From Longimicrobiales bacterium (GTDB lineage Bacteria; Gemmatimonadota; Gemmatimonadetes; Longimicrobiales; RSA9): a stretch of 35,904 nucleotides of DNA. Below, piece by piece: positions 26,026 through 35,902 of the stretch (its first letter is position 1; every line of letters starts with the position of its first letter). The position numbers and the translations under genes were made by a program. The notes under the pieces were generated by a model. That model saw only the letters and a list, made by a program, of their open reading frames with translations, did not search any database and had not been told where the DNA came from. The stretch is from assembly GCA_035764935.1 (NCBI GenBank), contig DASTYK010000104.1, positions 1 through 35,904 on the forward strand, in the 5' to 3' direction.

Positions 26026-27216
26026 ATGTCGAGCCCTGCCAGACGCGAAGGTGATACTGCCGAGCGAGCGCGCTCGATCGGCCTGCCCGATGACAGCACC
26101 CTCGAGGGCCTGCTCCGCCTGCTGGTCGAGTCGGTCCGCGATTACGCCATCTTCGTGCTCGATGCGACCGGCCACGTGATCACATGGAACCCGGGCGCCG
26201 CGCGGCTGAAGGGGTACAAGGCCGAGGAGATCATCGGCAGGCACTTCTCGACGTTCTACCCGCAGGAAGATGTTGCGGCAGGCAAGCCCGCCTGGGAGCT
26301 GGAGGTCGCAGAAGAGGAAGGCCGGATCGAGGACGAGGGCTGGCGTGTCCGCAAGGACGGCACGCTGTTCTGGGCGAACGTCGTCATCACCGCACTGCGC
26401 GATCCGGACGGGCGGCTGGTGGGCTTCGCCAAGGTCACCCGTGACCTGACCGAGCGACGCAACGCGGAGCTGCGCGCGATCGAGAACGCGCGCCGGCTGG
26501 CCGAAGTCGAGGCCGCAAACCGCGCCAAGAGCGAGTTCCTCGCCGCGATGTCGCACGAGCTGCGCACTCCGCTGAACGCCATCGGCGGGTACGTCGACCT
26601 GCTCCTGCTCGGTGTGCGCGGGCCGCTCACGGACAACCAGCGCGAGGACCTGCAGCGCGTTCGACGCAGCCAGCAGCACCTGCTCGCGATCATCAACGAT
26701 CTGCTCAACTTCTCGCGGCTGGAGGCCGGCCGTGTGAACTACGACATCGTGCAGACGCCGGTCGCACCGCTCGTCGACGAGGTCTGCACCATGGTCCAGC
26801 CGCAGGCGGCCGGGGCGGGGATCGAGCTGAGATGGGAGCAGTGCAGCGACAGGATCGCCGTGGCGGATCGCGCCAAGGTCGGTCAGATCCTGCTCAACCT
26901 GCTGACCAACGCGATCAAGTTCACGCCGGAAGGTGGTTCCATCACCGTATCGTGTCGGGTGGAGCCGTCGAGCACGGTACAAATCCGCGTGACGGACACC
27001 GGCATCGGCATTGCCGAGGACCAGCTCGAATCGATCTTCGAGCCGTTCGTGCAGGTCGGCCGATCCCTGTCATCGTCGCACGAAGGCACCGGACTGGGCC
27101 TCGCGATCAGCCGTGACCTGGCGCGAGGCATGGACGGCGATCTCACCGTCCGGAGCGTGCCCGGCAAGGGCTCGACGTTCACGATCAGCCTGCCAGCGTA
27201 CCGGCAGCACGACTGA
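26026..27216 (+). CDS. Soluble PAS-domain sensor histidine kinase
   Basis: A 396-residue protein with no membrane segment, so cytoplasmic. A PAS domain spans about residues 28-140 (IFVLDATGHVITWNPGAARLKGY, then the PAC end DGRLVGFAKVTRDLTERR). The HisKA dimerisation domain has His177 in FLAAMSHELRTPLNA. The HATPase domain carries the N box (LLNLLTNAIKFT), G1 (DTGIGI), F box (IFEPFVQ) and G2 (GTGLGLAISRDL). All catalytic residues are present. The PAS sequence GYKAEEIIGRHFSTFYPQEDV is the common form found in bacterial hybrid kinases. No response regulator is adjacent on this strand; two stand-alone receivers lie 1.1-2.1 kb away on the other strand and are candidate partners. Confidence 0.93.
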   Translation: MSSPARREGDTAERARSIGLPDDSTLEGLLRLLVESVRDYAIFVLDATGHVITWNPGAARLKGYKAEEIIGRHFSTFYPQEDVAAGKPAWELEVAEEEGRIEDEGWRVRKDGTLFWANVVITALRDPDGRLVGFAKVTRDLTERRNAELRAIENARRLAEVEAANRAKSEFLAAMSHELRTPLNAIGGYVDLLLLGVRGPLTDNQREDLQRVRRSQQHLLAIINDLLNFSRLEAGRVNYDIVQTPVAPLVDEVCTMVQPQAAGAGIELRWEQCSDRIAVADRAKVGQILLNLLTNAIKFTPEGGSITVSCRVEPSSTVQIRVTDTGIGIAEDQLESIFEPFVQVGRSLSSSHEGTGLGLAISRDLARGMDGDLTVRSVPGKGSTFTISLPAYRQHD

Positions 27217-28284: not shown

Positions 28285-28737
28285 TCAGCTCGTCAGCAGC
28301 CGTTCCAGCTCGGCCGCGACCGCCAGCGGGCTGGTCGGCTTTTCCATGTAGGTCGTGCAGCCTGCGGCATGCGCGGCCGCACTCACTCGGTTCGCGCGGA
28401 AGCCGCTCAACACGATGACCGGCAGCTCCGCCGTCTCGTGCCAGCGACGCATGTCGAAGCAGAGGTCGAGCCCGGTCTTCGCTCCAGGAAGGCCCAGGTC
28501 CAGCAGCACTGCGTCAGGACGCCGTTCGCGCGCGGCACGCATGCCGCTGTCGTAGTCGTCCGCAAACACGACGTCGAAGCCGCGTCGCTCCAGCACCGTT
28601 CCGTAGATGGATCGGTCATCCGCATTGTCCTCCACCATCAGGACAAGCGGCCGCCCGGCCGGCTGCACGCTGCCGGTGCGATGCCGCTGCCGGTGCACCG
28701 CGCCGTAGCGCTTCCTGGAAATCATCATCCCGGGCAT
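28285..28737 (-). CDS. Single-domain response regulator (receiver only)
   Basis: A 150-residue receiver from ATG 28737, which has GGAGG three bases ahead; an upstream TTG (28764) adds only nine residues. All switch residues are present: Glu/Asp in LMVEDNADD, phospho-acceptor Asp80 in AVLLDLGLPG, Ser111 in VIVLSGFR, and Lys123 in YMEKPTSP. A basic N-terminal extension of about 28 residues precedes the domain, and there is no output domain. It is clearly a paralogue of the receiver 94 bases upstream on the same strand (shared VVFA, LLDLGLP, VLSGFR-N, EKP-SPL), so the pair arose by tandem duplication. It may relay phosphate from the PAS kinase at 26026. Confidence 0.9.
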   Translation of the reverse strand: MPGMMISRKRYGAVHRQRHRTGSVQPAGRPLVLMVEDNADDRSIYGTVLERRGFDVVFADDYDSGMRAARERRPDAVLLDLGLPGAKTGLDLCFDMRRWHETAELPVIVLSGFRANRVSAAAHAAGCTTYMEKPTSPLAVAAELERLLTS

Positions 28738-28830
28738 ACGCCTCCGCACTTCGGGTCTCCGCAACCAGCTTCTTTGAGGTAGACGCCTGGCTCGTGCGGC
28801 AGGTCACGTTCCAGTCGTGGCGGGCGGCGC

Positions 28831-29322
28831 TCAATCCCTGCGGTCGAGCACCGAGGGCAGCTCCCCGTCTCCGGCGAGCGGCGGCTTGCCGATCAGCTCT
28901 TCGATCCGACGCATGACGTCCAGCGGGCTGGCCGGCTTCTCGACGTAGTCCGCGCAACCGTAGCGATCCGCGGTCTCGCCGAGCTCGTTGCGCCGGAAGC
29001 CGCTCAGCACGACCACCGGCACCTTCGGGTTCGCGGAATGCCGGCGCAGCTGGGCGCACAGCTCCAATCCGTTCCCGTCCGGCAGGCCGAGGTCGAGCAG
29101 GACCAGGTCCGGCGCATACTGCATCGCCAGTTCCAGTCCCGCGCCGATCGAGCCGGCAAAAACGACGTCGAAGCCATTGTAGCAGAGCATCATTCCGTAC
29201 ATCTCGCGATCGTGCTCGTCGTCGTCGACAACCAGGATGCGCGGCCGCCTGCGGCTCTCTGCTGGCTCCTTCTCTCTATTGCTGCCACCCCCGGGAGCGG
29301 CAGAAACGAATGCATAGCCCAT
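28831..29322 (-). CDS. Single-domain response regulator (receiver only), paralogue of the downstream gene
   Basis: A 163-residue protein from ATG 29322; AAGGAGGAG lies rather far upstream (about 13-14 bases). Switch residues are intact: acidic cluster in LVVDDDEHDRE, Asp77 in LVLLDLGLPDGNG, Ser107 in VVVLSGFRRNE, and Lys129 in YVEKPASP. A flexible N-terminus (about 26 residues) and a short C-terminal tail (GKPPLAGDGELPSVLDRRD) flank the domain; no DNA-binding or enzymatic output is present. It is the first gene of the two-receiver unit. A dyad-symmetric site lies 46 bases upstream. Such stand-alone receivers act by phosphorelay or by binding partner proteins. Confidence 0.9.
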   Translation of the reverse strand: MGYAFVSAAPGGGSNREKEPAESRRRPRILVVDDDEHDREMYGMMLCYNGFDVVFAGSIGAGLELAMQYAPDLVLLDLGLPDGNGLELCAQLRRHSANPKVPVVVLSGFRRNELGETADRYGCADYVEKPASPLDVMRRIEELIGKPPLAGDGELPSVLDRRD

Positions 29323-34808: not shown

Positions 34809-34921
34809 CGCTACCCCTCGCGCAAACCGTTCGCACCTGTCAGATTGCCGCCATCCCGATTACATCGATCGCATGCGCGGCGCCCTGCGTCGCCTGCCGT
34901 ACGTATGAGGTAAGAGGAGTC

Positions 34922-35710
34922 ATGCCGCAGAAGCGTCGGACCGGAAGCACCAGGGGCAGCAACGGCACACGCAAGCGCACAACGACCGGGCGCAATGCAG
35001 GCAAGGCCGCAGCGAAGAAGCGCACGGCGACCAAGCGTTCGGCAACGAAGCGTTCGGCGACCAAGCGTACGGCGACCAAGCGTACGGCGACCAAGCGTAC
35101 GGCAACGAAGCGTACGGCGGCGAAGCGTACGGCGACCAAGCGTTCGGCAACGAAGCGTACGGCGGCGAAGCGTACGGCAACGAAGTCGGCCAGCAATAAC
35201 GGCGCGGCGAAACGTGCCAGCGCCACGAAGAAGACTTCCGCACCGAAGAGCACTGCGACGCGTCGTACCCAGCCGTACGAGGTCCGCCGCTCACCGATCC
35301 AGGGCAAGGGCGCCTTCGCCACGCGCGACATCCGGCGCGGCGAGCGGATCGGTGAGTACCGTGGTGAGCGCATCTCCTGGGAGGAGGCGGACCGCCGCTA
35401 CGACGACGAGTCCCAGGAACGCCATCACACGTTCCTGTTCGAGGTCGACGACGAGACGGTGATCGACGCGGGCGTGCGCGGCAGCGGCGTCAAGTACATC
35501 AACCACTCGTGCGACCCGAACTGCGAGGCGCTGATCGAGGATGGCCGCGTGTTCATCGAGGCGCTCAAGCCGATCCGCAAGGGGCAGGAGCTCTTCTACG
35601 ATTACAGCTATGTCCTCGACGAGCCGCACACCCCGGCCGTGAAGAAGCGCTATCCCTGCTGGTGCGGTTCCAAAAACTGTCGCGGGACGATCCTGGCCAG
35701 GAAGCGGTAG
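34922..35710 (+). CDS. SET-domain protein-lysine methyltransferase with a histone H1-like KRTAT-repeat N-terminal tail
   Basis: A 262-residue cytoplasmic protein; ATG 34922 follows AAGAGGAG. Residues 1-115 are a low-complexity basic tail with almost no hydrophobic residues: eleven tandem five-residue units KR(T/S)A(T/A) at 33-87, resembling the C-terminal tails of histone H1 and AlgP-type bacterial DNA-binding proteins. Residues 118-262 form a SET domain: GKGAFA (128-133) at the AdoMet site, YINHSCDPNC (192-201), and ELFYDYSY (223-230) with the catalytic Tyr. The post-SET motif CWCGSKNCRGT (246-256) is present; its three Cys plus Cys197 can bind zinc. SET enzymes transfer methyl groups from AdoMet to lysine. 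The lysine-rich tail may be a DNA anchor, an internal substrate, or both (inference). Terminator 55 bases after the stop. Confidence 0.92.
   Translation: MPQKRRTGSTRGSNGTRKRTTTGRNAGKAAAKKRTATKRSATKRSATKRTATKRTATKRTATKRTAAKRTATKRSATKRTAAKRTATKSASNNGAAKRASATKKTSAPKSTATRRTQPYEVRRSPIQGKGAFATRDIRRGERIGEYRGERISWEEADRRYDDESQERHHTFLFEVDDETVIDAGVRGSGVKYINHSCDPNCEALIEDGRVFIEALKPIRKGQELFYDYSYVLDEPHTPAVKKRYPCWCGSKNCRGTILARKR
35018..35182 (+). repeat. Tandem 15-bp repeat encoding the KRTAT array
   Basis: Eleven head-to-tail 15-base units of the type AAGCGTACGGCGACC, differing mainly at synonymous or T/S and T/A positions, inside the SET-protein gene. Copies share near-identical bases, so the array can expand or contract in frame. 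Confidence 0.92.
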
Positions 35711-35797: not shown

Positions 35798-35823
35798 CTG
35801 TTCGCGATGCCTCGGTTGCTAGA

Positions 35824-35902
35824 CAACGTTGCGCTTATCGAGCGGGGCGGAAACTCGATAAACGTTGCATTTGATTATTCAAGGCAACGTTGCGCGTATC
35901 GA
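35824..35902. repeat. Cluster of repeated and inverted CAACGTTGCGC-TATCGA motifs at the window edge
   Basis: CAACGTTGCGCTTATCGA (35824-35841) recurs directly as CAACGTTGCGCGTATCGA (35885-35902), 61 bases on, with one difference. Between them an inverted, shortened copy TCGATAAACGTTG (35855-35867) pairs with the first through TTATCGAG (35835-35842) / CTCGATAA (35854-35861). The patch is AT-richer than its surroundings. It could be a recombination site, an operator array or the edge of a repeat element; the window ends within it. The stretch 35711-35904 has no credible gene. Confidence 0.65.

Follow-up and report, generated by a model that had tools for sequence, protein, structure and literature searches.

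A SET-domain gene of a Longimicrobiales bacterium encodes an intact SET domain fused to a long polycationic N-terminal tail, and this fusion is obligatory. We lean towards the explanation that the product is an active protein-lysine methyltransferase, which is kept on the nucleoid by its tail as a polycationic DNA tether and acts on DNA-bound proteins, with methylation of the tail itself being secondary. The larger finding, judged from the sequences of related proteins, is that bacterial SET methyltransferases repeatedly carry tails of such a DNA-tether type, at either end. Bacterial SET proteins have so far mostly been studied as effectors that target the histones of a host; many free-living bacteria encode them as well. 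The features of the gene are listed in Table 1, where positions refer to the window, meaning the whole stretch of 35,904 nucleotides that was analyzed.

Table 1. Features of the tailed SET gene within the window.
Feature	Position	Strand	Basis or remark
Whole gene, N-terminally tailed SET protein	34922..35710	+	262 aa plus stop; ORF, coordinates and translation as in the sequence-only reading
Shine-Dalgarno-like purine-rich stretch GGTAAGAGGAG	34909..34919	+	directly 5' of the ATG; read from sequence
Tail, residues 1-115	34922..35266	+	35% K+R, D/E absent, no internal start codon
15-bp tandem repeat coding for eleven KR[TS]A[TA] units, residues 33-87	35012..35185	+	TRF: 11.6 copies, 85% matches
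SET domain (PF00856, model positions 1-105 of 105)	35303..35608	+	Pfam match
NHSC motif, residues 194-197	35501..35512	+	sequence, homologue alignment
YDY: residue 226, F/Y-switch position (Tyr); residue 228, catalytic Tyr	35597..35605	+	roles by analogy with known SET enzymes
Post-SET cysteines CWCGSKNC, residues 246-253	35657..35680	+	sequence, homologue alignment

The possibility that the tail is an artefact of a mis-called start was ruled out, given that there are zero in-frame start codons inside it. Indeed, no in-frame ATG, GTG, TTG, CTG or ATH codon occurs within residues 2–125 and no in-frame ATG, GTG or TTG lies upstream, while GAGGAG precedes the ATG of the ORF. Since the tail lacks an internal start codon, the SET domain cannot be produced without it, and the sequence-only reading had thus correctly placed the histone-like sequence within the enzyme itself (one ORF). 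This gene was also the sole SET gene detected in its own genome, which is placed among the Gemmatimonadota by its named neighbours.

The SET and post-SET sequences span from about residue 118 to the C-terminal end of the protein. Pfam family PF00856 matched over its full model length (E 6.9e-25; 87.9 bits, with the cut-off at 22.4), and all motifs of the complete SET/post-SET domain that had been proposed earlier (NHSC, YDY and CxCx4C) are present. Loss of catalytic residues in homologues, which had been named as a sign against that proposal, was looked for and the residues turned out to be kept: across 214 homologues, little or no variation was seen in the GxG AdoMet motif, in NH.C, in Tyr228 (the catalytic tyrosine) or in the cysteines of the post-SET part, with the reservation that the invariance of NHSC is partly a selection artefact, because the set was partly collected with a pattern that contained NHSC. 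The residue at the F/Y switch is a tyrosine in 210 of the 214 homologues. In studied SET enzymes, a tyrosine at this position goes along with mono- or dimethylation and, by analogy, this suggests the same outcome here. The nearest solved structures by sequence (phmmer) were the SET domains of MLL1/KMT2A, MLL3 and other KMT2/COMPASS proteins (E 1.3e-25). A Foldseek search with the AlphaFold2 model (md6bdcb18a202), whose SET part has pLDDT values of mostly about 90–98, returned the same order (MLL1 2w5z, E 6.7e-14; MLL3 5f6k, TM 0.75 by target). Based on sequence and predicted fold, the domain is therefore closest to the MLL/COMPASS H3K4 methyltransferases, with which it also shares the F/Y-switch tyrosine. 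In contrast to these eukaryotic enzymes, however, the protein has a different N-terminal architecture, there are no nucleosomes to act on, and partners of the WDR5/RBBP5/ASH2L type are not expected.

The tail differs sharply from this domain, with a net charge of +40 compared to a neutral SET part. Its 115 residues comprise 27 T, 24 A, 20 K, 20 R, 10 S, 6 G, 4 N and 2 P, and counting KR[TS]A[TA] units returned exactly the eleven KRTAT-type units described before for this Lys/Arg/Ala/Thr tail. No second 60-residue stretch of tail-like composition was found in the six frames of the whole window, which sets the tail apart from a chance occurrence. In the AlphaFold2 model, pLDDT is 47–61 over most of the tail's length, with a long low-confidence helix across the repeat. 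The tail shows the features by which lysine-repeat DNA-tether tails such as those of TopA and Ku are recognized, namely low-complexity K-rich repeats joined to an enzyme. The earlier label of a histone H1-like tail holds by composition but not by family membership: the Pfam family HC2 (PF07382) scored 27.8–30.4 bits against a curated cut-off of 40, and the Burkholderia-type histone H1-like model (NF038053) scored 34.6 bits against a cut-off of 80. As the HC2 score lies under the curated cut-off, ‘H1-like’ refers here to composition and style of repeat rather than to homology. What the tail has in common with HC2/AlgP-type H1-like proteins is thus their composition and short-period repeats, whereas it differs in staying under the family cut-off and in being a fused tail rather than a stand-alone protein.

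The sequence-only reading had suggested a search for the SET-plus-tail architecture. Such a search showed that the fusion is not singular, that tailed SET proteins are common and that the C-terminal end is favoured. In a set of 216 distinct SET cores, most of them from Gemmatimonadota and the rest from Burkholderiales, Myxococcota and further groups, a basic tail is present at the C-terminal end in 60, at the N-terminal end in 13 and at both ends in 1, which leaves 142 without a tail. Under an equal or looser rule, neighbouring genes matched at the C-terminal end in 21 of 458 cases, most of which are ordinary globular segments and three of which come from loci fetched for their tails, and at the N-terminal end in 0 of 458; as the surveyed rows are related to each other, these enrichment figures are not independent counts. 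The SET family itself was present in 181 of 395 sampled Gemmatimonadota genomes (E ≤ 0.001), some of these being weak, distant matches. The nearest orthologue, from a genome of the same family (G007; 68% identity), has no N-terminal tail but a 205-residue C-terminal tail rich in K/R/A/T/S, while the orthologues in three other genomes of this family (G008, G009 and G011) are tail-less. The N-tail of the window protein is the longest N-tail in the survey, and the C-tail of G007 is the longest real-looking C-tail. Furthermore, in 14 of the 17 two-SET Gemmatimonadota genomes that were checked, one SET protein is tailed and the other tail-less (L180, L220, L225, L250, L279, L263, L269 and others), which fits a division between a tethered and a free enzyme. 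One candidate, G000:C115 (L012), was rejected as a lysine tail, as it has a TVRTG-type repeat instead and looks like a wrong frame. We found no published account of tailed SET proteins in the open-access papers searched, a corpus that has most subscription papers outside its reach.

On a 215-row tree, tail presence changed (by gain or loss) at least 26 times; the tail state was clustered, but nowhere near a single origin. A 53-row tree placed the window protein and G007 at the base of an otherwise tail-less Gemmatimonadota SET clade (99/98), and many C-tails were found in the clade on the opposite side. For pairs of C-tailed proteins with a core identity of 70–97% (mean 78%), the identity of the tails averaged only 47%, and the K+R content over all SET C-tails had a mean of 41%. 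Such fast drift of the tail sequence with retained charge fits selection on charge instead of on sequence. The tails of the window protein and G007 have a DNA similarity of 74% over 116 nt, which was not read as homology by descent, since low-complexity codons common to both would be expected to produce it.

These patterns also bear on whether the tail might be nearly neutral, that is, a low-complexity sequence grown by slippage that has no specific role, on an enzyme whose substrate would be unrelated and cytosolic, for instance a ribosomal protein. The 15-bp tandem repeat is indeed prone to slippage, and the gain and loss of tails, their variable length and sequence and the lack of synteny would all be in line with this idea. 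We nonetheless consider it unlikely, given that the composition is kept despite the sequence drift, that the enrichment relative to neighbouring genes is strong, that tailed and tail-less paralogues occur side by side in the same genomes, and that zero acidic residues over 115 residues are not expected under neutral drift.

Similar tails occur on DNA enzymes of the same phylum. The TopA of the window's own genome (L281, G000:C177; identity confirmed by Pfam) ends in a K/R/S/A tail that scores 35.4 bits against HC2, and both TopA and Ku of G008 (L011 and L015) have lysine-rich, HC2-like C-terminal tails, with the Pfam-confirmed Ku scoring 30.2 bits. The lysine repeats of Streptomyces TopA resemble histone H1 and stabilize the enzyme–DNA complex (PMC7398561). 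Such lysine-rich tails, seen here on TopA and Ku of Gemmatimonadota, have been described for actinobacterial TopA. The tails of TopA and Ku share with the window tail the HC2-like low-complexity K/R/A/S/T sequence and similar HC2 scores, but they form the C-terminal ends of DNA enzymes, whereas the window tail forms the N-terminal part of a protein methyltransferase.

Because the same type of tail is found on TopA and Ku and because SET proteins have gained tails recurrently, we interpret the tail as a tether to DNA. Nucleoid tethering, as put forward earlier, is by this analogy the best reading of the tail, and it stands as such an interpretation rather than as an observation. RNA, ribosomes or acidic proteins could be equally good binding partners. 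In the explanation that we favour, the gene product would be a cytoplasmic protein-lysine methyltransferase of a bacterial MLL/KMT2-like SET family, and its disordered 115-residue N-terminal tail would serve as a non-specific tether to DNA (or to another polyanion), by which the enzyme would be retained on the nucleoid. The tethered enzyme would then methylate lysines on DNA-bound proteins, probably yielding mono- or dimethylation, and lysines of the tail may receive methyl groups incidentally or as a form of feedback. The recurrence of the tails suggests enzymes that work on the bacterial chromosome and, together with the frequent presence of a tail-less paralogue, points to a role at the chromosome of the bacterium itself. 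We tentatively raise the broader idea, which we regard as possible but not probable, that the recurrently built tethered SET proteins, with H1-like tails gained at either end, are located on the nucleoid and methylate chromosome-bound proteins as well as their own tails, so that free-living phyla would have a bacterial equivalent of histone methylation.

In one alternative, the main substrate would be a separate nucleoid protein of the H1/HC2-like type, methylated in trans, and the tail would serve only to co-localize the enzyme with it on DNA. The window's own genome does encode an HC2-like protein of approximately 490 residues (G000:C108; L286:26-1501), which scored 43.2 bits in the genome search and 40.3 bits by hmmscan, i.e., over the cut-off of 40. 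Its long N-terminal region is HC2-like and rich in KKxxA/ARKS, while its C-terminal region contains CxxC and resembles a zinc ribbon. Based on its sequence, it is a possible nucleoid protein of this genome and a natural candidate for a trans substrate. Several HC2-like stretches were also present in G008 and G009, whose SET proteins are tail-less. On the other hand, the SET and HC2-like genes are unlinked, and none of eleven genomes of a related family (f3) with a strong SET match had an HC2-like match; since these genomes have the SET gene, the possibility that SET proteins always require an H1-like partner was ruled out. The comparison with chlamydial enzymes is divided. The SET protein of Chlamydia pneumoniae, cpnSET, was reported to methylate Hc1 (PMC3980110), whereas NUE of C. 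trachomatis did not methylate Hc1 but host histones and NUE itself (PMC2904774); the earlier statement that NUE acts on separate histone-like proteins was therefore inexact. Taken together, we hold the main action on an H1/HC2-like protein to be improbable.

Another alternative, closest to the sequence-only reading, is that of a self-modifying chromatin protein, in which the tail would be both DNA binder and main substrate of its own enzyme, and methylation of the KRTAT units would tune DNA binding. The substrate-like array lies in cis, the closest relatives of the SET domain are H3K4 methylases, and the TKR[TS]A context that recurs in the tail is similar to TKQTA at H3K4, with 8 such sites compared to 0.33 on average after shuffling of the tail; this count is effectively a single, post hoc observation, because the motif is one repeated unit. 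Lysine methylation leaves the charge unchanged, so DNA binding would not be expected to change much. The looser TKRTA context applied to just 2 of the 28 lysines in the G007 tail and to 6 of 745 in other SET C-tails, the context was nearly absent from the genome's own TopA tail, and its strict form was nearly absent from the genome's own H1-like protein. Given that TKR[TS]A is nearly absent from the G007, other SET and TopA tails, there is no conservation of a specific recognition array, and TKRTA as an H3K4-like recognition site is a lead only. Moreover, most family members, including the tail-less orthologues in the same genome family, are without such a substrate in cis. Self-methylation as such has a precedent, since NUE automethylates at K209/K210, located outside its SET domain in a basic C-terminal cluster (PMC2904774). 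The claim that the tail is its own methylation substrate has no conservation behind it, though the NUE precedent makes it possible, and we view the self-modifying protein as quite doubtful.

A secreted nucleomodulin, i.e., an effector against eukaryotic histones like NUE, RomA and BtSET with the basic tail as nuclear localization signal (NLS), would suit the MLL-like SET domain, the ability of basic tails to act as NLS and the fact that known bacterial SET proteins have mostly been studied as effectors, but it is very improbable, as the family is widespread among environmental bacteria, an NLS needs far fewer than 115 residues, and the 96% complete own genome gave no match to FHIPEP (T3SS/flagellum), VipB (T6SS) or a VirB4-type ATPase (CagE/TrbE/VirB; T4SS). 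Because none of these T3SS, T6SS or T4SS markers was found, a host-directed effector is unlikely. The window protein has the SET plus post-SET type and the catalytic motifs in common with known bacterial SET methyltransferases (NUE, cpnSET, Burkholderia BtSET and unnamed SET proteins), and it differs from them by its 115-residue repetitive polycationic N-terminal tail, by the lack of these secretion markers and by belonging to a phylum of free-living type.

The genomic neighbourhood is not shared between relatives. Compared with the called genes in the window's last 11 kb, the loci of G007, G009, G011 and G348 had no genes in common beyond SET, so that no conserved operon or partner gene was found in these four related loci, and no conserved neighbour that would indicate a chromatin substrate. 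The window also had zero matches to Rfam families. At the contig end, the window contains two copies of the 21-nt sequence AGACAACGTTGCGCTTATCGA (positions 35821-35902; 90% alike, spaced 61 bp), and three more near-copies, spaced 121 and 61 bp apart, cluster in G000:C74:6537-6736; this short repeat may have broken the assembly. Elsewhere in the window, two adjacent stand-alone response-regulator receiver proteins of 159 and 163 aa are encoded on the same strand (28285-29322, minus), near a PAS histidine kinase (26026-27216, plus). Lastly, 35 viral contigs of IMG/VR (L125–L159), many of them 100–500 kb long, encode SET domains that are 27–43% identical to that of the window.
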